Assembly: GCA_003024785.1 (NCBI GenBank)
Contig: PUQB01000456.1
Coordinates: 81,001 to 145,000, forward strand
Direction: 5' to 3'
Source: Selaginella tamariscina
Taxonomy: Eukaryota > Streptophyta > Lycopodiopsida > Selaginellales > Selaginellaceae
Length of the DNA: 64,000 nt
Within the stretch, counting starts at the first letter, position 1; each line of letters starts with the position of its first letter. A program made the translations under genes and the position numbers. The notes under the pieces were generated by a model. It had not been told where the DNA came from, ran no database searches, and worked only from the letters and a program-made list of their open reading frames with translations. Below, in pieces: positions 20,096-64,000 of this stretch.

Positions 20096-20217
20096 AAGAG
20101 TGGAGCATGTACTTGCATTTAGAAAAGCTGGTTTCTAAGAGATGAATGTTTTTGTTGTTATTTCAGCTGTTGATGTTCATCTTGTCGCTCATATTGACCG
20201 GCCTTCAAGTGTTCAAC

Positions 20218-26800: not shown

Positions 26801-27223
26801 ATCACATTCCCCTCAAATGGATCTTTGAAAATTGACAATTGCTATACATATGCACGTTGTAACTAAAGTGGGCATGATACGTGAAAATGGAATATAAAAT
26901 AAATTACTAATTAATACTTAAGTTTTAATTATTAATTAATCATTTAATTAATATGTAATTAAGCCTTAAATATTAATTAATTAATTAATTAATCCTTCAA
27001 TAACCTTACTTAGTAAGGAATATTCCTAAAATATCTTAGAATATTCATATTATTCTAAAAATAGTTTACAATAATTAAGAAATACTATCAAACATAATTA
27101 CAAATGAAATCATTTCCTTATCAACATGTTAATTTATTTATAAATACTTTCTTCCTAACCATACAGAGAAATCTCCTCATTTTGTCTAAATCATCACTCT
27201 CCGGATTAATCAAATCATTTTGG
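26801..27223. other. No gene seen; AT-rich
   Basis: AT-rich, rich in TTAATTAA steps (26930-27000). 26850-26875 resembles the start of the tandem repeats at 57087 and 57371 ('gttgtaactaaagtgggcatg'). Confidence 0.55.
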
Positions 27224-28330
27224 TCAATATCTTGATGTTGTTGCCACCACCTTAACACTCTCACGAATGCAATTGGGAGTTGCCATCCTTGTTAATACAT
27301 AAGATGTAATAAGACCAGGTCTGCATAAAGGCTCATCTAAAAAATGACGTTCCTTAAGAATAATATTATAAAGCGCCCGGTTGCTATCCTTCATTTTATA
27401 AAATTCAAAATCACGAGAAAGAAAAGCTTCAGGAAATGTTTGATACGGTGGATACTGCTCACAAAATTTTCGAGATTCTTCTTTCTGAGGCACGTATCCA
27501 AGTAGTTCACTAGCTCATCCATGATATCGGTATCAGAATATGGATCGAAAGTGATTGGATGAATACAAGCAATGTTTTGGTTGAGCATAGCCTTCTGAGG
27601 AGAGTCGTCTACCACTAAGATATGTGCATTCTTCATTATCCTTAAGCGACTGATCTCCCCATGAGCCCAATTAATTCTTTCATTCTTGAAGAAGTATGGC
27701 TTGCTTTCCTTTCTTATATTGTGAAATTCGAGAGGTTTATAACACATTCGCTGGTCAAAAATCCAATCTTTACGAATCACCTCTTCTGCAACACTACAAT
27801 GTTTCTTAAGCAAATTCAACAGCGGTGTTAAGTTGTGAATCTGCATGCATGACCAAATCCCCACAAGCGCACCCATCTCCTTAAGCTTTTGAAAGAGACG
27901 ATCCAACCCTGGACGAAAAATAATATCATATCGAAATTTACCATGACAAGGAATGAAATCTCCTTGTTTGATTTCTTTTTTCTATCCTGGGCCTTTGTCG
28001 ATGAAGCAGAACACCATTGACATCCAACAACACAATATGGCCATGAGTAACATGGGATAGCGTTGCCTCTTGAATACTTTGCAAATCACTTGTTTGCTCC
28101 CTTTCACATTTATCGTTGACACTATCTCGTTGCCTATCCCTTATCATTTAATTGTACATCATCCTTACAAGATTCAGATATTGCATGCGCTGAAGAAATT
28201 GATTTCGGAACTGAAGCCAATAAAAATGATGATGAAAAAACTGAAGTGGCCCCCATGGTAACGATGTTTTGAGCTGCATTATTATCCATTTCCTGCATGA
28301 ACTCTGTCATTCTGACATGTGGCACAAGAA
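27224..28330 (-). pseudogene. FCP1-homology (HAD/NIF-type) phosphatase gene, frameshifted
   Basis: Plant FCP1-like protein, a HAD-fold phosphatase family that includes RNA polymerase II CTD phosphatases. The minus strand from 28325 gives a Ser/Asn-rich N-terminus. HIVLLDVNGVLLHRQRP at 28040-27990 is the HAD motif I. It reads D-V-N-G-V rather than D-x-D; Asn at this place is common in the plant subgroup, so the nucleophile Asp is present but the general acid is not. KQGDFIPCHGKFRYDI and FRPGLDRLFQKLKEMGALVG follow, then WSCMQIHN and motif IV ILVVDDSPQKAMLNQN (about 27624-27577). A C-terminal tail (CEQYPPYQTFPEAFLSRDFE) ends at 27224. Frame changes near 28150, 27980 and 27480 must be bridged, two of them in or beside A-rich runs. 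The gene lies downstream of, and on the same strand as, the ParB-like gene, and could be its neighbour within one element. Confidence 0.72.
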
Positions 28331-28698: not shown

Positions 28699-28703
28699 AA
28701 TGG
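28699..28703. repeat. Target-site duplication AATGG (left)
   Basis: AATGG here and AATGG at 35868-35872 directly flank the two LTR ends. This is a perfect 5-bp duplication of the size integrases of Ty3/gypsy elements make. Confidence 0.95.
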
Positions 28704-30335: not shown

Positions 30336-30337
30336 AT

Positions 30338-30350
30338 TGGTAGCAGAGCC
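30338..30350 (+). promoter_or_regulatory. Primer-binding site (initiator tRNA-Met type)
   Basis: TGGTAGCAGAGCC begins 2 bp after the LTR. The complement of the plant initiator tRNA-Met 3' end is TGGTATCAGAGCC, so there is one mismatch. It primes minus-strand DNA synthesis. Confidence 0.88.
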
Positions 30351-34187: not shown

Positions 34188-34200
34188 AAAGGCGGGAGTG
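34188..34200 (+). promoter_or_regulatory. Polypurine tract of the LARD-type element
   Basis: AAAGGCGGGAGTG immediately before the 3' LTR; the expected site for plus-strand priming, interrupted by one C and one T. Confidence 0.75.
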
Positions 34201-35867
34201 TGTCATAGTTTTTACTATGACTCCTCTTTACTTTGGACGTTGACTGTTGTTACCTACTGTACTATGTTGATAAGCCCTAGGTAGAAGAAACAGGCCCGCT
34301 TAGTGCACTTGGATATCTAGTGATGGTCGGCCGGGTGTCATTAGGTATTTGCAAGAAACTCTAGGCGAAGCTAGCACTTCCATCTAGAAAACTCTTACCT
34401 TGGTTTTCGTGTCCCAGTTGGATTAATGGCTAGTTCCAGGTGAGTTCGGCATGTCGGATATGCTTAGAAATACCCCTAGGTTTGACAGGTTAGGGTTTAG
34501 GGGTCGATGATAACTCACCAAGTATATTTCCTTTGGGAATGAGATTTCAGTGCTAGCCCACATGTAAACAGGAAAACAGGGGGGGACCTCTGTCACATAA
34601 ATAAGGTAGTATATAGGAGTGAGGGTTCCTGGGTTCATGACTGAGCTCGTTACTCTTCTCCCGGTGCAAGCTCTAGCTTGTGTCGTCAAGGCACAACCCT
34701 CTGTTGTGCCGCCCTAACTTCCAGATGCCAGGGGTACGTCCCACCTTTGGGTAGCTTACCCTTAACGTTGGCGAATCCATGCCTGGGAGATCTTGTCGGA
34801 ATGCACGTTCCAAGAGCAGAGGTTGAGGCTTGTCTCCAGCCTCCTCCTCCACGTCAAGCTAGGTGTAGCACTCACGACCAAGCAAGGCACATCCGTGTCC
34901 TTGTCCAACTGTGGGCGTGGGATCTTGTTTGACAGGTTCACGTTACTTGGTTCCTGAGGGTTCATAGAGGGGTTCTAGAGTTGGTATTTAGGAGCCACGT
35001 TTGTGGTACTTGGTGCAACTCTTGAATCTAAGGGCTATGGCATGATAGCCCACATCGGGGAAGGCAGTGTCACATGGAGATGTGACACTAGGCTAAACGT
35101 CACATGGTACAATGCCTGAGGCACGCCCTTTGGGATTATGTCATGGGCTTGTCGCCAAGGGGTTGGATACTTTAGCAAACAAACATGCTTGTGCTTACAC
35201 TAGGGTGCTAAGCTTTGGGCATCCGCTCAAGGAAGGTTAGGTCTCATAACTAGGTGTGCTTTGGCACACTTGGCTAGGGGAGTGTTCTCCTTGGAATTCA
35301 AGGGTTGAACAACCTAAACATGTTAACAGGAGCCCTTTCGTGAGGCACTCGCAAGGTCATGTGCTTAGGGTTATCCCAAACCTAGCCTTGGGGAGTTTGC
35401 TTAGTAGAACACTCGTGTCCTCACTAAGTACTAGCCCTAGGTCTAGGGTATAACTTAGCCACTCAAACCTTTAGGGGTTAGTCGTGGTTCAGGGTACCCC
35501 TTGTCGCCCTAAAGGGGTGTACTCCCGGATGAGGGTGATTCCTCAAGAGGTAAGTGACGATGCCTTAGCTCTGTCCAGAGGGTATGTGTGGAACACATGT
35601 CTCCTTGATGGGGGTTAGGGCATGAGCCTGTCTAGGTCTTCTAGGGCAAGACCTTAAGTCAACTAGGGTTATCCCTCAAGGGTTTTGGGGTAGACACTCT
35701 AGGGAGACTTGGGCTAAACCCTAAGTCTCCTGTCCACTTGGGCATTAGAGTCTAACCCTAGGGGTCGTTGGGGTTGTTCTGGGAAACTTAGCGTTGCTCA
35801 CACAGGATGATGACGCCAAATGGCCACTGGTAGCCACGTGTTGGCTCTTTGGGTTAAAACTCTGACA
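34201..35867 (+). repeat. 3' LTR of the LARD-type element
   Basis: Matches the 5' LTR throughout. Differences are mostly 1-3-bp indels (for example ctaggtgtagaag vs ctaggtagaag), the length of the G tract (7 G at 34579-34585 vs 15), and one extra block of about 46 bp near 35325-35370. Confidence 0.95.
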
Positions 35868-35872
35868 AATGG
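35868..35872. repeat. Target-site duplication AATGG (right)
   Basis: Partner of 28699-28703. Confidence 0.95.
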
Positions 35873-38800
35873 AGTGTGTGAATGTTCTGTACTCCTTGAG
35901 ATAACTTCCAGTCTAATATCTAATTGAAGTTCGTCTTCAGACTCCGACATTGAACCAAATTCGTCTTCAGAACTATCACACTTATCGGGGGAACTTTCTC
36001 AAATACTCCTGTATGGGTTTGTTGGGGTAGTCAGTTGAGAACCTCTCTATCCACTTGTTCAGGTCCTCAACCATGGTCTTATCCTTTTCAACGGCAAACA
36101 CACATGTATCCGAAGGTAACACTCCTTCAAGACGGACCCCCTAGTGCAGTAGTCAAAAACCCACGCATCACTGTGAGGACCCCTGATCAAGTTGACGATG
36201 CTCCGTGCCGCTTGACTTGTAATGTTTGGATAACGTACATTGCCGAATACGTCACTCTCAGCTATCGGTGTATCGGATGGAGGTTCAGGGCCGTTGGAGT
36301 GCAAACAGATGCCTGGCCAGTCATTTGGAAGTTTGAAATTGTTTGGCGCATTCCTAACAACCAAGTGAACAACCGAATCAATGCACTTCGGATCAGCATC
36401 ATTCATATAAAATCCTGTCCAACGATGTTTATTCCTCTTGGCAAAGGCGAAGGCAAAGGTATCGGTGACATGAGCAAGAATCAAGAAATAAATACCTGAA
36501 AACGTAGATATCAGTCAAGAGTGCAAGTATGAATTCAATAATAAATACCTTCTTTGTACATGCTTGCACGGCTAAGTTTCTCCACCAAATCCTCTAGTGT
36601 CCTGTCTGTCGAAGGATTTTTTGACACCCGCCGATCCATCACGAACAATTGAAACGGTTTCCTACAAGCAGTGATGGTACCCCATAAAGTCTCCGAATCC
36701 AACAAAAACATCTGTAGGGCTTGTCGTGATTCGTAGCATCCTCCTTTATAAGGTTCAACTCGGTTCTCCGCTGCTGAAGGACTGCCATAAGAGAAGGCGT
36801 CATCGCAATGTTCTCCTTTTTGGCGTTGGCGTGCAATAGATTCTTGCCCAGATCTTCCGATTGATTCACCCATTCGACAAGCATATCATCATTTGTCACA
36901 TGCAAATATTTGCTGACCTCTTCGTATGTTGAAGCCGAAATCCAACCCAGTTTGTGGCAGTGTATTCCCAACCACTCCTTGAAGTGCCTGACCGTCTTCA
37001 ACTCCATTGCCTTGAGATGAAAAGGAGAGGTGGGCTGCTGTTGTTAATCTGTAATTTGCCATCAATCACCAAATCAGCCAAGACTTCCATCTCCTCCATC
37101 GTTGTTCCATTTAAAGGCTTCAACCATGTGAGCTTGAAATCGTTGTCTACATCCTTTATAGATTGAACAGACTTAGCCTTCGGCGTCTTACTGGGTTTCT
37201 TTGCAGACTTCTCTGAGGGCTCCTTCACTTGTCTGCTTCTTCTTCAGTGTTCCTTTTGCAAAGGATTCCATAATCCCCAACCATTTGCAAAGATCCTATC
37301 CTCGGGACAAGAAATCAACATCATCAAAAAGGATGTTTCCTTCCCGCCCACCTGGGCAAAATCAACTGCTACAATTTCTTCAACTCTCTGAGAAAAAAGA
37401 CAGATTAATATACCGGCGAGATAAATCCCGCCCAAACAATTTGCTTACCCGGTAGTCCGCAGATTGTGTATTCCCTGCGGTAGCTCTTTGTGGTCGCTGA
37501 AGAGATTCCCACACGGCTCGCGTGTGTTTGAACTTCTCCCATATTTTGCTGTTGTAGTGGTTGGTGTCTGCAGCGTCCCATTCCGCCGATAACTTATGGT
37601 ACTGCTCGATTGTGAGATTCGGCTTCGCTAAAAACGATCTTTTTGTCAGCTTCTCACGGGTATGCTCGGAAAGTTTTGTTGCCATCGTTCCTTTGTTGTG
37701 TTCGTCGAGAAGTCGTTGGGCTGCCGTTATTGTGTGCTGGCCACTAATGATGTAGTACTTATGATTTTCTATTCTCCGTCTGAACCTTCCTCATTTGTTC
37801 CGGTGTTGTGATCCACACTTTGTCAGCGCCTTTGTTTTCTCGTAGTATGGCACAAAACAGCATTATGTGGAACGGTGTAAGAATTGTCGTCTTCATCTTC
37901 TCCATGAGCTCAGCTACACGTTCCTGTTGAGTGGCCTGTAATTGAAGTTTGGGTTGACGCTGCAATACTTAACCCTACACTGTAAATCCTATCATCCAAC
38001 ATCATTTCCTTGTGGCTTATTGCAGCATGGGATGCCACAGGTGCAGCTGACAAAACGATAGATTTTCTTCTACGATCCGAATCAACATGTGTGATCCCCG
38101 ATTGATGCTGTTCTAATGTTCTCGGCACACTCTTCCAGCTCCCGAAATTTTAAGCAAATTGAACGTGATCTGTAAAGAACCTGAGACCAAGCCACCCTCT
38201 CAATCTCCTTATGATGTCGCTGTGTTCTTCTTCAATGTGAAGAGGGACGATTGCTCCACTTGTGATTTTCTGTATTGTGAAGCAATATCTCTGAGAATAC
38301 ACCTACTCGATGAGTCTGAAGATCTTCGAAGTAGACATCCAGTTGGATCCCCTCCATAGATGGGCTTTCGTTGAGTTGAAGAAGAACTCCACGGTCAACA
38401 TCATTAGTGAACACGTGAACGTCATTATCCACAAGTCGACAAAAACCACCCGAAATTAATGTTGTAACTGGCGACCTCTGGATCCGAGAACGTGACATTG
38501 GATGGAACAAGGCATATGTGTCGAGCATCGTTCAATCTGGGTTCGCAGCATGCTTTCGGATGCTTGACTAGCACACCCACTTTCCATTGTTTTGCTTGTC
38601 CATGCGATGTGACAGAGGTTAGTTTGACAGCAACCATGGTTGTTCCAATGCGCTTCCCGTTTAGTTTGAAATATGGCCAAGTTGATTCCAGAATCCCCCT
38701 GCCCATCTCTTCTCCTGCTCTCGTCTTTAATGTCACCTCAATTCCACATCTGAATACAAAAATGATTAGTTCAAGCACATATCCGAGTATAACAGATTTT

Positions 38801-38877
38801 ATTTTAATTCTTACCCAGAATTTGACGACGACTCCATACTAATGACTCGATCTCCTTGTTTAATTAAATCGTCCTTC
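35873..38877 (-). pseudogene. ParB-like / methyltransferase-like gene, split by the LARD insertion
   Basis: Minus strand, several short exons and frameshifts. A splice acceptor (TTTTGCAG, 38878) starts an exon with KQGDRVISMESSS. A 65-nt intron (38814-38750) follows, then a small beta-rich domain (CGIEVTLKTRAGEEMGRG, then LNGKRIGTTMVAVKLTS). About 37960-37660 resembles a ParB N-terminal domain: TQQERVAELMEKMK, then YYIISGQHTITAAQRLLDEH, close to the 'GxHR..A' nucleotide-binding loop. The rest reads like a permuted (beta-class) N4/N6 DNA methyltransferase: KPFQLFVMDRR at the DPPY position, then LILAHVTDTFAFAFAK, YPNITSQAARSIVNLI and AWVFDYCTRG at the FxGxG position, ending in EKD near 36075. 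The DPPY and FxGxG residues are not kept, so it would probably be inactive as a methylase. The C-terminus is acidic (SSEDEFGSMSESEDE) and is cut by the LARD; its last codons probably resume at 28698-28590. Domain calls are inference from motif order. Confidence 0.5.
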
Positions 38878-38977
38878 TGCAAAATAATACACTATGAATA
38901 CAAATCATATAAAAACGCACACACACTTGTATAAACCCGAATATACAAAAAAATACACAGAGAGAAGTGACGGAATT

Positions 38978-39064
38978 AACTGTCCAAAGCTCACATTTGT
39001 GCTAGTGCAAAAGAAAGATAACATTTCGTTTTAGAACCACCACAAATGTGAGCTCTGGACAGTT
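38978..39064. repeat. 24-bp inverted repeat, 39-nt loop
   Basis: Left arm 38978-39001 (aactgtccaaagctcacatt...) and right arm 39041-39064 are complementary at 23 of 24 positions. It lies between the palindrome array and the ParB-like gene, about 100 bp upstream of the first visible exon. It could be a stem-loop in the transcript, a MITE remnant or a protein site. Confidence 0.88.
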
Positions 39065-39169
39065 TTACATAGATTCCTAGCTTTTACTCGAAATATTATG
39101 ATAAGATGATAAAAGTAAATAAAATGAGATATGCAACTTATATATACTAATACACATATATATTCACAT

Positions 39170-40382
39170 GGAAGGTGCGGCGGGATTAATCTCGCCACCC
39201 CTTCAATGCCTCCTGAAAGAGTGGGCGGGATTAATCTCGCCACCTTTCTGGAGGCCTTGAACGGGAGTGCGGAATTAATCTTGCCACCCTTCTCGGTCTC
39301 AGAGAGAACTGGCAGGATTTATTTACACCCCTTCAGTGACTCCAGAAAGGGGCGGGATTAATCTCGCCCACCATGTAAGGGATGGTTAAATGAATTCGCC
39401 ACCCTTCCCAGTTCTCTCCATTGGTATGTTGTAAACCTTCTACGTCTCAGACAGAAACGTTTGGGATTGACTCACGGAGAAAAAAGGAAGGGTGGCGGAT
39501 TCATCCTCCAACAGGCATTGAAGGCTCGGCGGGATTAATCCCGGCCCAGGCCTTCACTCGGTCCCTATGCGGCGGGATTAATCCCGCCGGACGCCAATTC
39601 CCTCGCGGAATCGGGCGGGATTAATCCCGCCGCCTAGGCCCTTCAGGCAGGCCTTTGGCGGCGGGATAAATCCCGCCCGATTCCGCGCAGGATGCGTACG
39701 CGGGGATTAATCCCCGCCGGCCCTTCACTCGGGCCTAGGCGGCGGGATTAATCCCGAACGCCAATGCCCTGTGCGAATCGCGGGATTAATCCCGCGCCTA
39801 GGCCCTTCAGGCAGGCCAATGGCGGCGGGATAAATCCCGCCCGATTCCGCAGGGCATGCGTACGCGGCGGGATTAATCCCGCTGCCTAGGCCCTGAAGGG
39901 CCTAGTGGCGAGATTAATCCCGTCAGACGCCAATGCCCTGTGCGAATCCGGCGGGATTAATCCCGCTGCCTAGGCCCTTTCAGACAGGCCAATGGCGGCG
40001 GGATAAATCCCACCGGATTCCGCACAAGGCATGCGTAGGAGGCGGATTAATCCCGCCGCTCTTCGATTAGCCTTATGGGCGGCGGGATTAATCGCTGCTC
40101 ATGAGGCTAACTGAATAACCTACCTGAAATGGCGGCGGGATTAATCCGCCGTTATTCGATTAGCCTTATGGGCGGCGGGATTAATCCCGCTACTCATGAG
40201 GCTAACCAAATAACCTGTCTGAAATGGCGCCGGGATTAATCTCGGCGCTCATGAGGCTAACCAAATAGCCTGCATGAAGGGCGGCAGGATTAATCCCGCC
40301 GCTGAAGGGCTAACCATATAACAGCGGGATTAATCCCGCCGCCGAGGGGCTAACCATATAGCGGCGGGATTAATCCCGCTGC
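39170..40382. repeat. Palindrome array III (about 25 copies of GGCGGGATTAATCCCGCC)
   Basis: About 25 exact or decayed copies of an 18-bp palindrome, spaced about 40-50 bp. A variant with ATAAAT in the centre recurs near 39666, 39829 and 40001, so a higher-order unit of about 165-170 bp with four palindromes is present. Spacers are themselves paired as inverted versions (gattccgcagggcatgcg vs cgccaatgccctgtgcgaat). The copies at 39170-39400 are the most decayed. It lies upstream of the ParB-like gene. Open frames across it are products of the repeat and not genes. Confidence 0.95.
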
Positions 40383-40850
40383 TACACACACACACACACA
40401 AAAATAATATATATATATATATATGTATATGTGTGTGTAGGAGAGTGCGTGTGTGTGCTAAAGATAGACAAATCAGATAAAATTATACTGACACACACAC
40501 ACATATGTATATGTATATGTATATTGTATGTGTGTGCTAAATAATTAAATTATACAGATACACACACACACACACATGTATATGTATATACAGGAGTGTG
40601 CGGGTGTGTGCGAGAGATAGATAAATAAATAAAATTATACAGATACTGGTACATATAATATATGTATGTATATATGTACATAGGTGTATATATATGTGTG
40701 TATATGTATATCATGTGTATGCGTGTGTGAAACAAATAAAATCATATAGATAAACAAACACACACACACACACACATATACAGGAGTGTGCGTGTGTGTG
40801 CGAGAGATACAATTAACAAATCAATAAAATTATACAGATACAACACACAC

Positions 40851-40896
<46 letters not shown>

Positions 40897-41034
40897 GTAT
40901 GTATAGGGGTGTGTGTGTGTGCGAGAAATAAATAAATAAATAGAATTATACAGGAGTGTGCGTGCGTGTGCAAGAGATAAAATTAATATAATTATACAGA
41001 TACACAAACATAAACACACACACACACATATATA

Positions 41035-41065
<31 letters not shown>

Positions 41066-41190
41066 CGAGTGTGCGTGTGTGCGCGAGAGATAGAGATCTA
41101 ATTAATTTATTAAGATGCACACATATATAAATATATATGTGAATAAAATAAATAAATAAACTCAGGAGTGTGCGTGAGAGAGAGAGAGAG
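40383..41190. repeat. CA/TG/TA minisatellite
   Basis: About six degenerate copies of a 110-190-bp block: (CA)n, tatatgtatat, 'caggagtgtgcgtgtgtg', 'cgagagatagataaataaat', 'aaattatacagatac'. It continues from palindrome array III on the side away from the gene. Confidence 0.88.
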
Positions 41191-41579
41191 AGATCTCACC
41201 TGTGTGTGAGAGAGAGAAGGAGATTTCACAGCCGTCGCCTCCGCCGCCTTACTTCTTGAAACCCTAAGAATATACTAAAACCTTAAAAGGAATAGATATA
41301 TATTAACCCTAATCGAATATTCCTTCTAAGAATATACTTAAACCCTAAAAAGAATAAACTATAAATTTGCCCTAAACAAATATTCTTTGATTATATTTCA
41401 GCGTGTGCATGTGCGTGGGTGTATCACATACACCCCAAGAATAAAAATCATGCAGGGGTTTAACATGTGTGTGTCCATGAGAGTGTTAAAGTTTCACATG
41501 CAGCGATACATATATACACACATAGTATATACACATAGACATACATACATATTAGTACATATTAATATTAAAGAGACAA

Positions 41580-42090
41580 AGTACAGGATCATGCATGGTG
41601 TGTATGTATGAGAGAAGAGTGACAATACATATTATGGATCATGCATGGTGTGTATGTTTGAGAGAAGAGAGACAGTACATATTAATATGGATCATGCATG
41701 GTGTGTATATATGAGAGAAGAGAAAGAGTGTTAACAAATTAAATTCATACACATTGTATATATTAGTACACACATATACATACACATGTGTATGCACACA
41801 GACATATATACATATTAGATGTGTAAATTCAATGTGTTACATAGGGTTTAGGGTTTAGGGTTTAGGGTTAGGATGGATCATGCATGGTGTTTATGTATGA
41901 GAGGAGTGAGTGTTATACACAGATATACATTATACATATTAATATAATATTGTAACATCAGTACATATTATGGATCATGCATGATGTGTATGAATGAGAG
42001 AAGAGAAACAGGCTACATATTATGGATCATGATCATGCATGGTGTGTATGTATAAAAGAAGGGATTATGCATGGTAACACTGTGTATGCA
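41580..42090. repeat. Minisatellite with 'ggatcatgcatggtgtgtatg' core
   Basis: Six or more units of roughly 50-100 bp containing 'atcatgcatggtgtgtatg', then 'gagagaagaga', then 'acatatta'. The same family occurs on the opposite strand at 63370-63860. About four TTTAGGG units sit inside at 41845-41875. Confidence 0.85.
41845..41875. repeat. Interstitial plant telomere repeat
   Basis: tagggtttagggtttaggg and one degenerate unit. Related blocks occur at 13560-13585 and 63590-63605 in the other element copies, so it belongs to the element and is no chromosome end. Confidence 0.9.
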
Positions 42091-42492
42091 TGAGAGAAGA
42101 GATATAATGTTAACAAATGAAAATCGTACACATTCCATATATTAGTACACATATATGCATACACATGCGTATACACACAGACATACATTATATTACATAT
42201 GTAAATCAATGTGTTTACATACATACAGACTGAGTACATATAAATCATACATGCGTTGAACATGATGTTTTTCGATAAAAAAGTAACATATAATTTCTTA
42301 AGTTTGGTTTAGGGCAATGTGCATGTGTGTGCATATGTGTCTCTATAAGTGCTTCTAATGTGTGTGCACGTGTATATATAAATTTATGATTGTGTTTATA
42401 TATGTGTGTAAAACAAACATAGAAAATAATATTAATAAAAACACTATGAACATATTTTAAATTATACATAATAATACATCATTTATCTAATA

Positions 42493-43340
42493 ATAGTCAT
42501 ATATAGTTTTAATATATATTAATTTAATATTGATAATAAGGTTTAACATTAGAATATTCTTGAAATAATAAGAAATTAATTGAGAAAATCTCATTAATAT
42601 ATACAAATGTAGATCAATACTAAAATAATTAACTAAATTAATTATGATAATCATGTTTAATATTGAAATATTCTTGGAATAATAAGAAAATAATAAAGAA
42701 TATCGCATTAATATAAACAAGATTAATTACTCAAGTAATTAAGAAAATGATATTAATATACACACTATGAACATAATTTAAATTATACATAATAATACAT
42801 CATTTTATCTAATATATAGTCATATATGTTTTAATAATATATATTAATTTAATATTGATAATAAGGTTTAACATTAGAATATTCTTGAAATAATAAGAAT
42901 TAATTGAGAAAATCTCATTAATATATACAAATGTAGATCAAGTACTGAAATAATTAACTAAATTAATTATGATAATCATGTTTAATATTGAAATATTCTT
43001 GGAATAATAAGAAAATAATAAAGATATCGCATTAATATAAACAAGATTAATTACTCAAGTAATTAAGAAAATGATATTAATATACACACTATGAACATAA
43101 TTTAAATTATACATAATAATACATCATTTATCTAATATATAGTCATATATAGTTTTAATAATATATATTAATTTAATATTGATAATAAGGTTTAACATTA
43201 GAATATTCTTAAAATAATAACAAATTAATTAAGAATATCCCATTAATATTAGGAAATGTAAATTAATTACTCGAGTAATTAAGAAAATAATAATAATAAA
43301 CAAATTATGAATATATTTTAAATGATACATAATAATATAT
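42493..43340. repeat. About 320-bp tandem repeat, 2.6 copies
   Basis: AT-rich units starting near 42497, 42818 and 43140, each with 'tagtcatatat...ttttaat', 'aatattgataataaggttta' and 'ttaattactcaagtaattaa'. The unit occurs once in element II (about 62690-62960, reverse), so it was amplified in this copy. Confidence 0.85.
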
Positions 43341-43786
43341 CAATTTATTTATTGTATTAGTGTGTGTGTGTGTATATATATATATAATAAACTTAATAAT
43401 ATATACTTGAATATTAAGAATGTAAAACAATTACAAAATTTTGTAATATTAAACAGCTTGAAGCACTTGAATGATGTTAAATGCAATTTTAAAGCACTCA
43501 TTGGAATTGGAGAGTATATATGTCAGACTGTCGGTTATTTGTTTCAACTCATCTTAAATTTTCTTTTTCTGTTATTTCAAAAATTTTGAATTTCTAACAT
43601 AAGTATTATCGGTCTGACATGTAAATTTGAAAATGCATTTAATTTCCCACTCAAATTCAGATTTGATTTTTTCTCCGACAAGGGTTTTTTATTTTTTTAT
43701 TTTTCACTCTTCAGATTTTCTTTTTTCTTCTTAGTGATCAGCTCAGGAGTGATATTAAACTGGGTGCGCTATTGTTTATAGGAAGC

Positions 43787-43811
43787 ATGGCGCCTTCAGT
43801 GCTGTTTACAA
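43787..43811 (+). other. Candidate first exon and splice donor of palindrome element I
   Basis: ATGGCGCCTTCAGTGCTGTT then a strong donor, ACAA|GTAAGT, at 43812. The matching acceptor TTGTGCAG ends at 44970. If spliced, the palindrome array would lie in a first intron of about 1.16 kb. In element II the ATG is ACG. The open frame does not continue across the join, so this would be 5' untranslated or a short upstream frame. Confidence 0.4.
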
Positions 43812-43979
43812 GTAAGTATTATAAACAAATTTAAATATATTTATAAAGATTCATTCTCTTACATTCTCTCTTAAATTTTTAGAATTTAGGGATTTAGGAA
43901 TGTATTAGGATTACAATATATGATGTTAGGGATTTATCCCATTTAAATATACTTCTAACTTAATATTCTCAGTTAGACG

Positions 43980-44822
43980 GGGCGACGGGATTAATCCGAC
44001 CATTTTTTTTTGCCTCTTCAAAGAGGTGGTGGGATTAATCCCGCCACCATCTCTTTGATAGTTATGGCAGAATTAATCCGGGCAATGCTTCTCCGCCTCT
44101 TAAAAAGAGCGCGGGATTAATCCCACCGATAACTTTCTCAACTGATAAAGAGTTACTTGAATTTATTAAAAAGAGTTATTTACGGGATTAATCTCGCTAA
44201 CCATTTTAGGAGGCAGAGAAGGGGTGGCGGGATTAATTTCACCACCACTTTCCTGTTTTAAATATTTATGGGCAGGATTTATCCCGAATCTCTTTCAAAT
44301 CATAGTTCGGAGAGAGTTGTGGGCGGGATTAATCCCGCCGCTTATTCCCCGTCGTTAGAGTTGTGACGGGATTAATCCCGCCGCTTATTCCCTGTCGTCA
44401 GAGTTGTGGGCGGGATTAATCCCGCCGCCTATTCTTCATCGTCAGTGTTGTGCGAGATTAATCCCGCCGCCTATTCTCGGTCGTCAGTGTTGTGGGCGGG
44501 ATTAATCCGCCCCCTCTTCCTCGTCGGAGGGATTTGCGGCGGGATTAATCCTGTCGACTCTCACCGACAAGGAAGATCCGGTGGCGGGATTAATCCCGCA
44601 TGTACTTCCTCGTTGAAGGGAGTCTGCGGCGGGATTAATCCCGCCACCTCTCTCCAACGAGGAAGTACCGGCGGCGAGATTATCCCGCCAATTCTTCCTC
44701 ACGGGAGGGAATCGACGGCAGGATTAATCTCGCCGACTCACTCCGAAGGGGTAGAGTTTGCGGCGGGATTAATCCCGCCCATTGTTCCTCGTCGGATGGA
44801 GTCGTGGGCGGGATTAATCAAT
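43980..44822. repeat. Palindrome array I (about 19 copies)
   Basis: GGCGGGATTAATCCCGCC and variants at about 43-bp intervals. Spacers such as 'tcttcctcgtcggaggga' and 'tattccccgtcgtcagagt' match, inverted, those of array II. Copies near 43980-44280 (far from the gene) are the most decayed. Confidence 0.95.
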
Positions 44823-44970
44823 ACCATAAGTTGTATTAATAAAGCATGAGATATTATCTTTATACATAATTATGTATTATTGCACATGCATATTATTAAG
44901 CAACTGCAGTTATGATTTCTTAGAAATATTGCATAAATAGATATCATAAATAACATAATTATTTGTGCAG

Positions 44971-45590
44971 GACAATATGTATAATACTAAAAATAAAGTA
45001 TGTCTTCTTCGGAACAACGAGATAGTTGGCACTGGAACTGTGAAGTTCGAGATGATAATGCATCATGTCACAATATTGCCCAAGGATCTTGGTGTACGTA
45101 TGGGTGAACACCATTTTCAAGCATGTTGAGGTTCCGGAAATGGAATTTGAGAGGGTTCTCCTGTATTGTGGAATTTGGATGAAGTCAAGGCTGACACAGA
45201 ATAGAGTCACAAACAAACAGTAGCACGAGTTTTCCAGATGATGGCTTGCATGCTGTGATGGATGAGGTGATTCTCTTTCTTCATGAGATTAAGGTTGGGA
45301 GAGGCATCATCATAGCTATAAATCCAATGGAAGCAGTGTCAGAAGAGAAACTAGGGGTCCGACTTTGTGGGTGTAGTTGTGACAGAGGTTTCACTAATGG
45401 CACTTTGCATCCTGGATCCCTCGTGAGGTGGCGAACATATGAATTAAGGGCAAGATGGTTCAACATATTCTGGGTGGATTTCAATAATAAAAACCTGAAA
45501 GAATAACTCATATTTGAAGAGGTTCCTTGCATTGGTCCTATTGTAAGAAAAAAGGCGATTATGGGTTGCAAATCTTCCCTGTAAGTTGGT
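44971..45590 (+). pseudogene. Truncated first exon of the DUF7869-like gene (element I)
   Basis: Plus-strand copy of 60993-60380: LRNNEIVGTGT, VMDEVILFLHEIKVGRGI, then INPMEAVSEEKLG and VRWRTYELRA are still readable. The GDK motif has become lost by mutation (aatactaaaaataaag). Frameshifts at several points and loss of everything after about 45590 make it a dead fragment. Confidence 0.85.
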
Positions 45591-50931: not shown

Positions 50932-53576
50932 TCACAGCACATCATCCTCAAAATCTGGAATCGCTATAAACAATCTGCCGGTGTTTATCATCTCAATGGC
51001 ACCACAACAATCTTTACAGACTCTTGAGTTCTTAATAATCGTTGGGATCTTCGCTAACGCACAGCTAACCAACCTCTCAGAAAATGCCTCCTCATTTTCT
51101 GGGTCTGACATGTTGCACAAACTACTTGCTATTAACTCCTGAAGTTTGACCGACACTTCCTCGTCAGTCTTATCTCCGGCTTTGAACTTGTGAACTACCG
51201 CGTCACTGTCTGTCCATGCCAGTGTCTTGCAAGTTTTGCATCTTTTTGCTGCACAAAACTTGAGACTGCTCTTCCCACATTCCCAGGCTTCCGTAAATTT
51301 TTGCCATTGTTAGATAAGTTGATGCTTGCTTGCCATCTAATTTGACCAGTGACTCATATGCAAGTCTCCCTATTTCTACGTTCTTCCACTTGTGGCAGGC
51401 CCCCAGTAACTGAATAGATAGAAAATGTGAGACTTACTACACTCTCATATGTGTGATATTAGTACCGAGTTCCAAGTAATGACGTTTGGCTCGTAAGGCA
51501 TAGACTTGACCAGTTGAAGGGCATCGTCAAGGCGATTGCCACGTCCAAAAAGATCAATCATGCAGTCATAGTGTTGGATGTCAAGTTTGCTGCCTGACTT
51601 CGCTGCCGCTGTGTAATATTTATTGCCCTGCTCCACCAAACCTGCGTGGCTGCACGCAGTGAGAACCGCCAGCAGTGTGATGCTGCGACCATAACAATGT
51701 TTAGTTTAACATGTTAAACTGTCTGGTTCTGGGGTCCATAAAACTAAAGAGGTAAAACCTAAAATGATCACAAGCAAACATGGAAAGCATTTCCTTGCTA
51801 GTAACCTTTATGACATGCGACATGTGTTATCTAAAGTTTGCTTTACCTACCTGTCAGGTGTCATGCCTTCCATCTGCATTGAATCAAACAATCGGAAGAC
51901 AAGTTGGGCTTCACCATGACGACTGTAGCCTCCTATCAAAGTGCTCCAGGTCACTATGTTGGTGGAAAAGATGGAGTCAAAAACGTGCTGGGCTACAAAC
52001 ATGCATCCACATTTGGAGTAGAAATCTACGAGAGCGTTTGCAACAAAAGTGTTGGTCTCATCAAGCTGATTGCGGCATATGCGAGCATGGATGCCCTTGC
52101 CGATGTCAAGTGTAACCAGTTCGGCACACGCAATTAAGGCTGCAAGGTAGGCGCGAACGTCTTCTTCCGGAGCAAATGCTTGAGCTTTCATGCAAAAGAA
52201 AAGATCCAATGTCACCTCTGCTTCACCATTGTTGGCGTATCCAAGTAAGAGAGCATTCCAGGAAACCATGCTTTGGTGATGCATACAATCAAAGACTTTG
52301 CGAGCATCCAACATGCTGCCGCACTTAGCATACAAGTCCACCAGGCTTGTCGCAACAAATATATTAGCTGCATGGTTGGAAGTGACAGCTTGCTTGTGCA
52401 GATGAAACGCCTTGTCTAGGCTTTTCATCTTCACGGCCGGACAACTATCGACTTGCCTGACCACTTCCTTGGATGCTATATCCGCAATGCTCGTACAGCT
52501 GCCACATAAGTCCAAGCATCAGGAAGCATTCCTTTGCCTTCCATGCGGGAGAACAGCTTAAGAGCTTCAGCGCCTTGGCCGTTTTCTGCGTAAGCCAGCA
52601 CCAGAGTCGTCCAGGAAACAACATCTCGATCGACCATTCCATCAAACACTGCCCTTGCCTCTGCCACACTTTCACATTTGGCATAAAAGTTCACCAAGGC
52701 ACTGTCAAAGAATACATTCAACAGTCCCGACTCTGCGGCTTGACGGTGAAATTCCCTTCCCTTGTCAAGCACATTTGGATCGTCCGTTAGATTTGTCAAT
52801 GCACCCACAGCAGCTAGAAAAGTCCGGGCATCGGGCTTAAGCTCCGGCTTCATGTGCGAAAAGAGCTGCAGTGCCAGTTCCGCCTTGTTGTTGTCCGTGC
52901 ATCCTGTTAACAAGGCGTTCCACGACACTGTGTTATGCCATGGAAACCTATCAAACACCAGCCGAGAGTCATACAAGCTACCGCATTTTGCGTACACACT
53001 GATCAGAGTGTTGGCAAGTGAAACAGCTTCATGCTGTTCGGCAGTGTCAGTGGTGCTGCCTAGTTGGCCTGAGTGGATTGCTTGGGAGTGAATAAGCATG
53101 GCACGCTCAAGCGACCTGATTCTAACATTCATACCGTCAATGATCCGGCCCTGTTCGTAACCAGCCAGCTTGCCGCAAGCAACAAGTGCAGCAACATAGC
53201 AGGGTCCGTCGAGAAGAGTGGGATGGACGCCGTCAAACAGCTCCAGTGCCTGGGAGCTTTGACCATTCTGGACGTAACCAAGCATGAGTGCAGTGTAAGA
53301 AGCAGCATTATGACAGGGGATCCTGCGGAAAGTCTCCAAACCATCCGCCATGTTGCTGCAGCTGGCATGCATGTCAATAAGGCTCGTGGCTACATACAAG
53401 TTGGAGGCGTGGCCGCTCCTCACAGCGTCTAAATGGACTGCACTAGAGCTTACCGGGTCTTTCACGGTGCTGCACGCCTTGGATGCCACCAGCAAGTCCC
53501 TGATGCTGCTGTGCACCTCCTCAAAGGAACAGAATGCCATTTGGACGAGGGAGACTGGCTTCGTGCATACTTTCAT
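50932..53576 (-). CDS. PLS-class PPR protein with degenerate DYW-like tail, frameshifted
   Basis: Pentatricopeptide-repeat protein, a family that binds organellar RNA one repeat per base. Members with a DYW domain edit C to U. ATG at 53576. Exon 1 carries many P/L/S repeats (NLYVATSLIDMHASC, VSWNALLTGCTDN, FFDSALVNFYAKC, VSWTTLVLAYAENG, IFVATSLVDLYAKCG, IVTWSTLIGGYSRHG), with one frame change near 52500. Intron 51850-51683 (168 nt) leads to the usual ITLLAVLTACSHAGLVEQG. Intron 51465-51410 (56 nt) leads to the E domain (LLGACHKWKNVEIG). After another frame change in an A run, a DYW-like part reads AVVHKFKAGDK, IIKNSRVCKDCCGAIEMI and stops at 50932. The deaminase HxE is FSE, and CxDCH is CKDCC. 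The HHF...CSCxDYW end is missing, so it cannot be a normal editing enzyme. No targeting peptide was identified with confidence. Confidence 0.85.
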
Positions 53577-56527: not shown

Positions 56528-57085
56528 GACTCTTTCTTATTTTGAACGTAGATTGTGATTACTTATTAAACAATTCCACTTCATACAATTAAGTGTTCGA
56601 CCGATTGTCTTGAATATTTGAAAAACTCTAGGCAAATGTAACACTTGACAATGTTTTTTAAAAAATATTTACTTTTATTTTTTGTATCTAATTGTGTTAC
56701 TGATTAATTTTTGGTGAGTTCCAGATAAAAACACCTTAGGGGTTGCCCTAAACCCTTGGGTTAGGGTTTAGAGTTAATGAGTCTTTAGGTTAAACTCATA
56801 TTGGGAATGATATTCTTTAGTAACCAACTTTACAAAAAGAGATTAATTAACAAGGGGAGCCTTTATTACATATATTAAATAAAATATGTAGTGAGAGTTC
56901 ATGAGTTCATATTTGAGTTTGTTATGTTTTTACTGGTACAAGTTCTTATGTTATTAAGGCATAACCCTTTATTATACCGCCTCAACTTTTAAACAATAGG
57001 GGTTCATCCCACCTTTTGTGTAGCATACCCTTAACATTAATAAATTTGCAATGGAGGTCTTGCCAAAGTGCATGTTCCAAAGATG
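56528..57085 (+). repeat. Highly decayed LTR, LARD/gypsy family
   Basis: Follows the plus-strand LTR order: 'gattgtgattacttattaa', 'aaaaactctaggcaaatgta', 'tattacatatattaaataaa', then 'ggttcatcccaccttttgtg' and 'gtagcatacccttaac'. The G tract is absent. Ends are not defined. Confidence 0.65.
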
Positions 57086-57720
57086 CATGTTGTAACTAAA
57101 ATGGGCATGTTTATAGTCCCATTTCTTAATAATTAACAATTTTAATTATTTAATTAATATTTTCTTATATTAAAGGAATATTCTTTAAAATATATGTTTG
57201 AAGATAGAATATTATATTTTGTAATCGACCTTTAATAAATTATAGCATTCATGACCAAAAATTAATAACATATAAAAGTAAAAGGTATTAAGTTATATAA
57301 TATATATATTTAAGATTGTATAGGTCTAATATAAAAATTAAGGAAGAGCATAGAAGTAAATTATATAATATGCAAGTTGTAACTAAAATGGGCATGGCTA
57401 TAGTCCCATTTCCTAATAATTAGCAATTTTAGCTATTTAATTAGCATTTTCTAATATTAAAGGAATATTCTTTAGAATATATGTTTGAAAATAGAATATT
57501 CTTTAGAATATTCTATTTTGTATTCTACCCTTTAATAAATTATAGCATTCATTGAACAAAAATTAATAACATTATAAAAGTAGAAGGTATTAAATTATAT
57601 AATATATTGCCTAATATAACAATTAAGGAAGAGCATAAGAGGTACATTATATAAATATTGATGTTGTTATTAAAATATTAATATTTAAATATAACATTAT
57701 TAATTAAAAATTTGTAGTAG
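57086..57720. repeat. About 284-bp tandem duplication, AT-rich
   Basis: Units begin at about 57087 and 57371 with 'gttgtaactaaaatgggcat' and run in parallel (aaggaatattctttaaaata vs aaggaatattctttagaata). The second unit carries an extra tagaatattct stretch. Confidence 0.85.
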
Positions 57721-57874: not shown

Positions 57875-60800
57875 TTAAGCTTCAGAAAACATACATTCCC
57901 TTGCAGTTTTGTTAATCGTGACTTTATCAACGCTTCTTGACATCCACCCATATCGAATGGATTTAACATTTATAAAACATGCTGGGTCTTTTTGATTGGG
58001 AGACCATGTTTTCTCTAGGCATCCATTATATCTTTCGCTCTCCTTCTCGTGTCGCCTTTTTTGTGGTTTGAACCATGCAACCTTAACAATACTATTTTTT
58101 GTGATTACTTCAGGTGTGTCGATAATTTGACCCATCCAAATAGGCTGATTATATGACGCATCTGGAGTAATGAGAACCATCATTAGTTTTTGAAGATCCT
58201 GCAGCAATCAAAGTATGCTTTAGGTTTTTGGTTCCTTTGTCCAACAAAGTGTGGGGTTTGCACTTCCACATCACTACTGGCTTCTATGTCGTCTGTGCTC
58301 AGTGATGTCATTTCAATCTCCTCTCGCCACCTTTTTTAGGCCAAAAAGGGTGTTGCAATTCTGTACTTGTGAGTAGGCCCTTCCAACTCTCGAACAACAG
58401 TCTCCCAATAGTCAACCACATGCTTATATAGTTCTGAGTAACCAGTTGCCTTATCAGAATTCTTTGGCATCGATTTTTGAACCCATGCCACATATTTTTT
58501 GATGCCATCAATAATAACCTCTTGTTCCTTGAGCTGGGCACTCAATGGAATAGGGTCTGGTTGTCCTTCTGGGAGAAGTGGCTTTCCATTCTCTCCACTT
58601 TTGAAGAGCATTAACCCCTCTTTCGGTAACCACTCCTGCTCTGATGGCCGTAACTTGTACTGCATAATAGGTATACCATCTCGTATGGAGAAAAAGAATT
58701 GTAGCGGCACAAGGTGACCAACTAAAGAATCACTCCCTCTTTTATATACTCCTTGAGAAATTTTTTGAAGTCTGGCACCTCAGTCACAAGCAAAGCACAA
58801 CTTTTTTTGGAGATGCAATTTTCAAAAAGATTCATCATATGCGGTAAGGTAAGTGCACTTGTCCTTTTTGTAGAGTTGGAGACCTTGCTGAAGAACGCAT
58901 CAATATCTTCATGAGTGTGACCAACCATAAGAAAACTGAGCGTGATTGTTTCAAACACACCTTTGGCAACAAGCATTGACAAGTATGCTAGCACATATCT
59001 AGAAAATAAAAGTAAGTATGAGCTTGAGAAACCCTTAAGTAAAATGATTTACCTATTTTTGTTCTCGCCTGCACAATTATCCATCTGTAAAAGCAAATGA
59101 CGAGGAAGCTTATTTGATGTTGAGGACACATGTACACTATTTGAGCTAGATCCCTCCACTGAACCTGAACTCTCAACAGGGCCATCTGTTTTTTGTGCAG
59201 GTTGCTGACAATGCCTCTCATATTCCCAAGTAGCCTCAAGTGCAGACGTGTTCATGAGAGCATTATGTAAAGGTTGAAGGTGTTGTTTCTTCACTTTGAG
59301 ATCACGATAGGACTTGTCTGTGAGTGGGCTTCAAGGTTTCTGAAACACATGGCCAACGACCCAATAGTGAAATTGGAGTCGCTAGACCAATGTGGAAGTG
59401 AAAAGTGTCCATATGATTCACAACCGTGTCCATGTGTTAGCACACTGTCAATGAAATCGGAAGTTTCATGACATTTCCAAGGCACTTTGGTGTTGCAACG
59501 AGCTTTGGAATGCTGGTCTTTGAATGATCCATCTTGTCATGGATCAAGCACAGGTACTCTGATGGGCGTGACACAGAAAGCATGCGGTGTGCATAGTACT
59601 GAGACCGGCAAGTTTGTTGCGCAATCATGTGGGCCTCCATCTTCTTTTGAATGGCAGTGATCTCCACCAAGGTTTTTGCACAAGCCTCTGCAGCCTTCAA
59701 TGATGTACAAGTGTCACACTTGGAAAAGCTAGAGTGTTTTGCAATCTCCACATCCTTAAAATGAGTATTCCATATGTTGTTGAAGGTACCAGTGCAGATT
59801 GCTTGCAGCCCCATCAAGCTGAGGCACTTGTTCACATGTTCACACAGCTTCAATTGAGTGTAGATCGAAGGCAAAACCTTGAGATTTTCCCTGACCCCTG
59901 CATTTGTGGTTCGGCATTTGTGAGGCATCCTGTCTGCATTTGCTTCCACAAAAGCCTTGAGTATCTCTATGGCTGCCATAATGTGAGAGCGGGTTTTGAC
60001 CAAGCCAGTGTTCCCATGTACTGAGGTTCGCGCTCCATCTAACCACTCATCCCTCCGACGGTAGAACGTGGTCTTTGGGATCCCATATATACTGTACCAA
60101 GCTTTGAAGCAGATGGCCACCTTATTAAATACCATGGATGTACTCTGATAACCTGTGTCCGAAGCCATTCCATCAATACACCCAGTTAGTGCAGCATATA
60201 CAAACTCATGCCTTTGCTTTTGGGTGAGCGTACGAAAGACATGTCTACATTGGGTAATTTCATTCCGGTCTGCCATCTGACAACACTTCTTCTTGCAGCA
60301 GTCAATCGTGGAAATGCTCGTAACACTTTCGGAAGATGTAGGATCCATCTTCATCCTCTTGCTGAAACATGTAGGGGAAGATCTGCAACCCATGAATCGC
60401 CTTTTTCTTACAATAGGACCAATGCAAGGAACCTCTTCAAATATGAGTTGTTCTTCCGGGTTGTTATTATTGAAATCCAACCCAGAATATGTTGAACCAT
60501 CTTGCCGTCTTAATTCAGATGTTCGCCACCTCACGAGGGATCCAGGATGCAAAGTGCCATTAGGTGAAACCTCTGTCACAACTACACCCACGAAGTCGGA
60601 CCCTAGTTTCTCTTCTGACACTGCTTCCATTGGATTTATAGCTGTGATGATGCCTCTCCCAACCTCAATCTCATGAAGAAAGAGAATCACCTCATCCATC
60701 ACAGCAGGCAAGCCATCATCTGGAAAACTCGTGCTACTGTTTGTTTGTGACTCTGTATATTCTGTGTCAGCCTTGACTTCATCCAAATTCCACAATACAG

Positions 60801-60987
60801 GAGAACCCTCCTCAAATTCCATTCCAGGAACCTCAACATGCTTGAAAATGGTGTTCACCCATACGTACACACAAGATCCTTGGGCAATATTGTGACATGA
60901 TGCATTATCATCTCGAACTTCCACAGTTCCAGTGCCAACTATCTCGTTGTTCCGAAGAAGACATACTTTATCTCCAGTATTATACAT
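57875..60987 (-). pseudogene. DUF7869-type putative transposase, frameshifted
   Basis: Minus strand. A splice acceptor (TATGTGCAG) precedes the exon; first ATG at 60987. The N-terminus has GDKVCLLRNNEIVGTG and a second beta-rich unit (DEVILFLHEIEVGRGI, then GSLVRWRTSEL). A Cys-rich patch (DCCKKKCCQM) leads to the family's helical region (YGIPKTTFYRRRDEWLDG, then HKCRTTNAGVRENLKVLPS, FSKCDTCTSLKAA). The core looks like an RNase H fold with three acidic positions: CLIHDKMDHSKT (Asp, 59536-59538), LLLQMDNCAGENKN (Asp, 59079-59081) and FLMVGHTHEDIDAFF (Glu, 58908-58910). A roughly 52-nt intron (about 59052-59001) joins NKNR to YVLAYLSML. Frame changes near 59450, 59310, 58740 and 58200 mark it as broken or badly sequenced. 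The C-terminal frame reads IWMGQIIDTPEV and ends at 57875. The family is known mainly as 'unknown function'; the transposase role is inference. Confidence 0.72.
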
Positions 60988-61139
60988 ATTGTCCTGCACA
61001 TAAATAATTGTGTTATTTATGATATCTGTTTATGCAATATTTGTAAGAAATCATAACTGCAGTTGCTTAATAATATGCATGTGCAATAATACATAATTAT
61101 ATAAAAATAATATCTCATGCTTTATTAATATAACTGATG

Positions 61140-62060
61140 GGCGGGATTAATCCCGCAGACTCTACCCCTTCAGAGTGAGTCGGCGGGATTAATCCCGCCC
61201 CGACTCTACCCCATCGGAGAGAGTCGGCGGGATTAATCCCGCCGCGCTCCCTCCGAGGAAACGGCGGGATTAATCCCGCCGGTCCTCGACGAGGAAGTAC
61301 CGGCGGGATTAATCCCGCGCGACTCCCTCCGACGAGGAAGTACGGCGGGATTAATCCCGCCCGCTCCCTCCGACGAGGAAGTCGGCGGGATTAATCCCGC
61401 CGGGCTCCCTCCGACGAGGAAGTAGCGGCGGGATTAATCCCGCCGCGGGCTCCCTCCGACTAGGAAGTACCGGCGGGATTAATCCCGCCGCCGGATCTTC
61501 CTCGTCTGTGAGAGTCGGCGGGATTAATCCCGCCCAAATTCCTCCGACGAGGAAGAGGGGCGGGATTAATCCCGCCCACAACACTGACGACGGAGAATAG
61601 GCGGCGGATTAATCCCGCCCACAACTCTGACGACGGGGAATAAGCGGGATTAATCCCGCCCACAACTCTCTCCGAAACTATGATTTCAAAGAGATTCGGG
61701 ATGAATTCTGCCCACAAATATTTAAAACAGGGAAGTAGTGGCGAGATTAATCCCGCCACCCCTTCTCTGCCTCCTAAAATGGTTGGCGAGATTAATCCCG
61801 CCGACAACTCTTTCTAATAAATTCAAGTAAATCATTATCAGTTGAGAGAGTTATCGGCGGGATTAATCTCGCCGCTCTTTTTAAGAGGCGGAGAAGCATT
61901 GCCCGAACTAATTCTGCCATAGCTATAAAGAGATGGTGGCGGGATTAATCCCGCCACCTCTTCAAAGAGGCGAAAAAAAATGGCCGGATTAATCCCGCCG
62001 CCCCGGCTAACCGAGAATACTAAGTTAAAAGTATATTTAAACGGGATAAATCCCTAACAG
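61140..62060. repeat. Palindrome array II (about 20 copies)
   Basis: Regular copies at about 40-45-bp spacing, near-perfect from 61180 to 61640 (many extend to CGGCGGGATTAATCCCGCCG) and decaying from 61690 to 62060. Typical spacer: 'ctccctccgacgaggaagta'. The array ends about 150 bp before the first visible exon of the DUF7869-like gene. Confidence 0.97.
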
Positions 62061-62159
62061 AATATATTGTAATCCTAATGCATTCCTAAATCCCTAAATT
62101 CTAAAATTTAAGAGAGAATGTAAGAGAGTGAATCTTTATAAATATATCTAAATTTGTTT

Positions 62160-64000
62160 ATAATACTTACTTGTAAACAGCACTGAAGGCGCCGTGCTTT
62201 CCTATAAACAATAGCGCACCCAATTTAATGTCGCTCCTGAGCTGATCACTAAGAAGAAAAAAGAAAATCTGAAGAGTGAAAATGAAGAAACCCTTGCCGG
62301 AGAAAGAACCAGATCTGAATTTGAGTGGGAAATTAAATGTATTTTCAAATTTACATGTCAGACTGATAATACTTATGTCAGAAATTCAAAATTTTTGAAA
62401 TAACAGAAAAAGAAAATTTAAGATGAGTTGAAACAAATAACCGACAGTCTGACATATATACTCTCCAATTCCAATGAGTGTTTTAAAATTGCATTTAATG
62501 TCATTCAAGTGCTTCAAGCTGTTTAATATTACGAAATTTTTGTAATTATTCTACATTCTTAATATTCAAGTATATATTATTAAGTTTATATTATATATAT
62601 ATATACACTAATACAATAAATAAATTGATATATTATTATGTATCATTTAAAATATATTCATAGTCTGTTTATTATTATTATTTTCTTAATTACTCGAGTA
62701 ATTAATTTACATTTCCTACTATTAATGGGATATTCTTTGTTATTTTCTTAATATTCAAAGAATATTCCAATATTAAACTGATTATCATAATTAAATTAGT
62801 CTTATTCTTAATTATCTCAGTAATTATTCTACATTTGTATATATTAATGGGATTTTCTCAATTAATTTGTTATTATTTCAAGAATATTCTAGTGTTAAAC
62901 CTTATTATCAATATTAAATTAATATATATTATTAAAACTATATATGGCTATATATTAGATAAAATATATATTAATGTATAATTTAAAATATGTTCATAGT
63001 GTGTATATTAATATTATTTTCTTAATTATTCGATGTTTGTTTTGCACATATTATATATAAACACAATCATAAATTTATATATACATGTGCACACGCATTA
63101 GAAGCACTTACAGAGACACATATGCACACACATGCACATTGCCCTAAACCAAACTTGAGAAATTATATGTTGCTTCTTTATTGAAAAACATCATGTTCAA
63201 CGCATGTATGATCTATATGTACTCAGTGTGTGTGTATGTAACACATTGAATTTACACATGTAATATATATGTATGTCTGTGTGTATACACGTGTGTATGT
63301 ATATATGTGTACTAATATAATATATGCAATGTGTACGATTTTCATTTGTTAACACTCTATCTCTTCTCTCATACCCTCTCTCTACCATGCATAATCCCTT
63401 CTCTCATACATACACACCATGCATGATCATGATCCATAATATGTAGCATGTCTCTTCTCTCATACATACACACCATGCATGATCCATAATATGTACTGAT
63501 GTTACAATATTATGTAATATGTATAATGTATATCTGTGTATAACACTCACTCCTCTCATACATAAACACCATGCATGATCCATCCTAACTAAACCCTAAA
63601 CCCTACATTGAATTTACACATGTAATATGTATGTATGTCTGTGTGTATACACGTGTGTATGTATATGTGTGTACTAATATATCCAATGTGTATGAATTTA
63701 ATTTGTTAACACTCTCACTCTTCTCTCATACATACACACCATGCATGATCCATGTAAATATGTACTGTCTCTCTTTTCTCAAACATACACACCATGCATG
63801 ATCCATAATATGTATTGTCACTCTTCTCTCATACATACACACCATACATGATCCTGTACTCTGTCTCTCTAATATTAATATATACTAATATGTATGTGTT
63901 ATGTGTATAATACTATGTATGTATCGCTGCATGTGAAACTTTAACACTTTCATACACGTGTTAAACCCTTGCATGATATTTATTCTTGGGTGTATGTGAT
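62160..64000. repeat. Conserved terminal region of the palindrome elements
   Basis: Shared with 12848-14620 (same strand) and 41401-43811 (reverse). Non-coding. Contains AT-rich DNA, a TTTAGGG-like block (63590-63605) and the minisatellite 'catacatacacaccatgcat' (63370-63860). No open frame above 63 codons. Confidence 0.85.

Follow-up and report, generated by a model that had tools for sequence, protein, structure and literature searches.

In a 64-kb window of the Selaginella tamariscina genome (contig PUQB01000456.1, positions 81,001 to 145,000; coordinates below count from the first base of the window), an 18-bp palindrome, GGCGGGATTAATCCCGCC, is repeated in dense arrays that belong to a high-copy DNA transposon with two divergent genes, here called gene A and gene C. 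We propose, with a probability of roughly 0.55, that the array next to gene A is a row of protein-binding sites within the leader intron of that gene, and that it serves in the control of both genes. The same 18-bp site, set among unrelated spacers, forms a matching row in gene C's candidate leader intron, and a dimeric DNA-binding protein would read such a palindrome. If one protein reads the palindrome in both arrays, it would therefore control both genes. This reader is most likely the element's own protein, encoded by gene A or gene C, and would act from both sides of the shared control region as an activator, a repressor or an anti-silencing factor.

Palindrome arrays in the window

The palindrome is fully self-complementary, as stated in the original prediction, which concerned positions 61140 to 62060. 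The window contains 55 matches to it at no more than three mismatches, whereas 100 shuffled sequences gave a mean of 0.01; the 55 matches are distributed over three arrays and one isolated unit at 37415:

61140..61999, no strand: array A, 19 units at up to five mismatches (18 at up to four), 10 exact
43984..44824, no strand: array B, 18 units, 4 exact, in a second copy of the element, on the side of array A
39179..40380, no strand: array C, 24 units, 2 exact, upstream of gene C; its spacers bear no relation to those in arrays A and B
37415..37432, no strand: isolated palindrome-like unit, within a small candidate intron (61 nt) of gene C

With a median unit spacing of 43.5 bp, array A agrees well with the approximately 20 copies at 40–45 bp described originally, and a gap of about 145 bp, close to the predicted 150 bp or so, separates its edge from 60994, the candidate acceptor for the first coding exon of the gene. 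The predicted span is correct for the units, which extend to 61999, but between 61999 and 62060 there is only a degenerate half-unit, acgggataaatccc. Arrays A and B sit in two copies of one sequence, inverted to each other (41423–45579 vs 64000–60375 reversed), the main pieces of which are 86.6 to 87.8% identical.

Structure and abundance of the element

The 300.7-Mb assembly contains 27,128 exact copies of GGCGGGATTAATCCCGCC, where base composition predicts about 7e-4, and a control with the pattern read backwards gave 0. The exact places listed are the first 100 of the 27,128, all from one contig (C1), and every one was retrieved. All 100 belong to arrays carried by 11 copies or fragments of a single DNA transposon (r1, r2, r3a, r3b, r4, r5, L029, L030 and L031, together with two older relatives, of which one is L032 and the other lies inside r5), which bears out the supposed clustering of the palindrome at element genes. 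Six full copies span 13.6 to 14.8 kb and share the same order: a left end TGCACGTTGTAACTAAAGTGGGCATG, the leftward gene C, array C, an AT-rich middle, array A, the rightward gene A and a right end TGCAAGTTGTAACTAAAATGGGCATG, the latter being the inverted form of the left-end word. The inverted-repeat ends were located on the right in 6/6 and on the left in 5/6 full copies; the left border of r3a was placed by eye, and in r5 the left end lacks its outer TGCA. The six full copies have 12.8 exact units on average, which extrapolates to about 2,100 copy-equivalents, corresponding to 29 Mb; the figure is rough and derives from one contig. No clear target-site duplication, such as the 3-bp one of CACTA elements, was found in the flanks of the copies; ATATA is possible in r1, and the others show none. 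The following parts of the element are found in the window:

26851..26880, plus strand: inverted repeat at the left end of the element that has arrays C and B
41423..43700, no strand: AT-rich middle between the divergent genes
57371..57400, plus strand: inverted repeat at the right end of the array-A element; a second such end lies at about 57084
62345..64000, no strand: AT-rich middle upstream of gene A, in an element that runs beyond the window end

Gene C of the element with array A is located past the window end, at 66662–68548 as numbered from the window start. The second gene and its array, the candidate leader introns, the inverted-repeat ends and the copy number were missed by the original prediction because they are outside its span.

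Some further observations concern the ends and the middle. The two right-end inverted repeats at 57084–57400 are about 290 bp apart in a stretch that is partly duplicated (57080–57305 vs 57367–57607, 86%). The middle contains four TAGGGTT units, a plant telomere-type repeat, at 41842–41869, and fragments of it at 12969–13509 are 77–84% identical to 42317–43671 and 62302–63139, with no array adjoining.

Candidate leader introns and the two genes

Array A is enclosed by candidate splice sites of gene A, and array B occupies the equivalent position in a truncated copy of the gene (exon–intron junctions are marked by a slash):

60994..62170, minus strand: candidate leader intron of gene A, TTTACAA/GTAAGTATT ... 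TGTGCAG/GACAATATG, enclosing array A
59437..60993, minus strand: first coding exon of gene A, ATG at 60987; in this copy, frame shifts break the frame downstream
58339..59440, minus strand: DUF7869 part of gene A, containing a small candidate intron
43812..44970, plus strand: candidate leader intron of the truncated gene-A copy, enclosing array B
44971..45579, plus strand: gene A, truncated and decayed copy

All 10 gene-A-side copies have the donor word GCTGTTTACAAGTAAGTATTATAAAC, which in one of them contains a 1-bp gap, and 9 of the 10 have the acceptor GTGCAG/GACAATATG. Pairwise change at the donor amounts to 0.6% over 32 columns, compared with 4.6% over the next 120 columns. These candidate sites suggest that array A would be spliced out as part of a leader intron. 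At least 79 of the 81 scored copies of gene A have an uninterrupted matched frame. The proposed link to DUF7869 is well founded, with a match to Pfam PF25273 at E 8e-40 and 136.9 bits (cut-off 26), obtained with a 180-aa piece joined across the small candidate intron. Gene A, which bears this domain, is related to P0001–P0008 at 20–37% identity.

A similar arrangement is seen for gene C:

38877..41199, minus strand: candidate leader intron of gene C, CACACAG/GTGAGATCT ... TTTTGCAG/AAGGACG, enclosing array C
35873..38876, minus strand: gene C, ATG at 38837; frame-shifted in the copy with array C and interrupted by a long terminal repeat (LTR) retrotransposon
37388..37448, minus strand: small candidate intron of gene C, 61 nt
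27391..27981, minus strand: NIF-type phosphatase domain (Pfam PF03031, E 4.7e-9), belonging either to the 3' portion of gene C or to a separate third gene of the element

The acceptor of the leader intron is found in 9/9 copies and the donor in 5/9, and because of the latter figure this intron is less certain than that of gene A. Splicing of the small intron would keep the frame, and read-through hits a stop. A palindrome unit is present in this intron in 9/9 copies covering the site; a relative at 78–80% identity carries three GATTTATCC-type variant copies there, and the relative L032 (77–79% identity) carries one variant copy.

Gene C has no supporting match in Pfam, PHROGs, the protein collection or the PDB, and its best weak match is to staphylococcal nuclease, at E 0.32 or worse. 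An assignment as a ParB-like plus methyltransferase-like protein, from motifs picked out by eye, was tried and is unsupported by the same four resources; a literature search on transposons with ParB, methyltransferase and fern gave nothing on topic among the matches listed. The LTR retrotransposon within gene C extends over 28703–35872, with LTRs of about 1.6 kb (28703–30340 and 34200–35872) that are 95.6–96.1% alike.

Conservation of the palindrome unit and alternative explanations

We sampled 311 units from 18 arrays, 263 of them distinct. Among the distinct units, the positions of the core GATTAATC are 93–100% kept and the arm positions 85–95%; on the gene-C side, one core position is down to 88%. 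When units were selected by the arms alone, the core was still 94–100% kept (264 units), and selection by ATTAAT alone gave arms at 83–96% (293 units). With the palindromes masked, A-side spacers match no C-side spacer at E 0.01, and A-side arrays match one another. Spacings below 60 bp have a mean of 44.0 on the gene-A side (standard deviation 2.7, n=119) and 43.0 on the gene-C side (standard deviation 4.4, n=123). The earlier suggestion that about 42 bp corresponds to four turns of DNA, with the bound proteins on one face, is not borne out by this scatter, nor by the unit positions in the three window arrays, where a 10.5-bp phase is absent (p about 0.79, 0.66 and 0.21). Changes of the C-to-T type within the palindrome amount to 9.3% in CHG, 4.3% in CG and 2.9% in CHH context; because the units share descent, these rates allow no inference about methylation.

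An unlikely alternative, though the most probable of those considered, is that the arrays are bound by a host transcription factor, e.g., E2F or a WUSCHEL-type homeodomain protein, so that the element is expressed in dividing or germ-line cells. The core presents TTAATCC on both strands, and a WOX paper reportedly uses the term TTAATSS (PMC9274204); GGCGGGAT is one mismatch from what we take to be an E2F half-site, a resemblance by sequence only. The A-side arrays are also rich in CpG, as in active control regions, with observed/expected ratios of 1.14–1.30 vs 0.35–0.39 in gene-A coding sequence (A-side spacers, 0.80–1.08). However, the 18-bp palindrome exceeds the length of such host sites, and since all listed exact copies are in this element, no host-gene array is seen among them.

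Somewhat less probable still is a selfish minisatellite, i.e., function-free spread and homogenisation via slippage or unequal exchange. Turnover of the arrays is indeed quick. Copies with coding parts a few percent apart have from 12 to 28 units per array, and the edge units are decayed. Pairwise substitution in 250-bp windows is 0.7–5.1% in gene C, 0.6–4.3% in gene A and 2.9–20.5% between them, where the figures of the array windows are inflated by misaligned repeats. On the other hand, the motif is common to two arrays and a coding-region intron with different spacers, and the core is kept while arms and spacers vary. In two older relatives, ATTAAT is kept in 34/35 listed units, which were picked by similarity, and some spacers in the older relatives still match the edges of the young C-side arrays. 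The symmetric variant GGCCGGATTAATCCGGCC occurs in 5/35 listed units of the relatives L032 (700–3300) and L023 (6604–8485); the units there are grouped in blocks about 500 bp apart with alike starts, and few origins by descent are probable.

The original prediction had also offered transposase or repressor binding sites, which appears to be the best reading of the sequence, and hairpins, for which pairing evidence was sought in the unit sample. Compensatory double changes are not in excess (7 observed vs 7.3 expected), and one-sided changes left G-U in 68 cases, A-C in 70 and other combinations in 160. The A side has G-U 40 vs A-C 28 and compensatory changes 0 vs 2.7 expected; on the C side the values are 28 vs 42 and 7 vs 4.1 expected. 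Because compensatory changes are not above expectation, selection on hairpin pairing is unsupported. Folded leader-intron RNA, with a role in splicing or as a small-RNA source, or DNA cruciforms are thus the least probable alternative, despite a folding energy of -12.6 kcal/mol for the 18-mer and a z of -23 for the sense array against 20 shuffles, as the loop TTAA is also among the best kept positions (93–99%) while the arms vary.

Returning to protein-binding sites read by an element protein, one result argues against strong constraint: orthologous edge units in ten copies differ by 6.0% in the palindrome (core 3.1%, arms 8.3%) and by 8.8% in the spacers. The C-side arrays do not clearly show the high CpG of the A side (0.54–0.83 in their spacers, not above the 0.74–0.78 of gene-C coding sequence).

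Comparison with known transposon systems

The original view that no transposon family is described with such a leader array was too strong. In VANDAL21 of Arabidopsis, VANC21 motif repeats are described within introns of two genes, VANC21 and VANB21, and in the region upstream of VANA21 (PMC5735166), and VANC target repeats gain or lose units between related copies (PMC5735166, PMC10398659). As for VANC21 and VANC6, a multi-gene DNA transposon carries tandem repeats of a short motif, which lie within introns or upstream of several of its genes (PMC5735166, PMC10398659); the arrays described here are located between candidate donor and acceptor sites, and would likewise be intronic. In both systems, the units turn over quickly while the coding parts remain alike. 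The two differ in that the VANC motif is 8–9 bp and non-palindromic (YAGTATTAY; AGTTGTCC/AGTTGTAC), compared with an 18-bp palindrome here, and in that VANDAL belongs to another superfamily with VANA, VANB and VANC genes. Moreover, VANC binding and methylation loss are demonstrated for VANDAL, whereas the corresponding steps are predicted here from sequence. The searched libraries gave no match for gene C, for which no direct comparison with VANC was made.

The En/Spm or CACTA elements, such as soybean Tgmt*, similarly have many copies of short motifs (TnpA-type sites), some of them stem-loop-capable, which are read by an element-encoded DNA-binding protein that is also a regulator of the element (PMC2613891); a protein of this kind is presumed here. 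The CACTA repeats are subterminal in elements with CACTA ends, in contrast to the internal arrays in candidate leader introns and the ends TGCA...GTTGTAACTAAA of the present element. CACTA ends were not found, the retrieved copies ending in TGCA[A/C/T]GTTGTAACTAAA, and neither the 530-aa frame nor the DDE piece gave a Pfam match to a tnp2-type transposase. Because the listed palindromes are confined to the element, and with VANC and TnpA as precedents, we infer that the binder is the element's own protein. A literature search gave nothing on DUF7869, DUF8039 or the 18-mer, and a search for GGATTAATCC gave only unrelated titles among the matches listed.

An anti-silencing role is a bolder step, and the high CpG of the A side fits it. 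More tentatively, and with some doubt, a DUF7869-type family unrelated to VANDAL may have independently evolved sequence-specific self-activation or anti-silencing, based on paired palindrome arrays, two leader introns and one element protein. If so, this could help explain the approximately two thousand extrapolated copy-equivalents in 300.7 Mb. To our knowledge, the use of motif arrays by plant transposons to escape silencing has been worked out in detail for few families. The present element would add a second such case in an unrelated family, where the site is much longer and fully symmetric and occurs in very many copies and in older relatives, and co-evolution of site and protein would thus be testable within a single genome. 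With its two genes and a motif array flanking the control region on each side, the element would also be a simple test object for such regulation.

Other observations

Among viral contigs, tblastn gave no relative of protein A in 84 matched stretches; the palindrome is present in one viral contig, L033. Elsewhere in the window, DDE_Tnp_4 (PIF/Harbinger-like) transposase frames are found at 20146–21529, the first of which matches Pfam PF13359 (E 3.4e-8), and minus-strand frames of a PPR gene occupy 51847–53576, with matches to PF01535 and other Pfam entries on 51847–52518.
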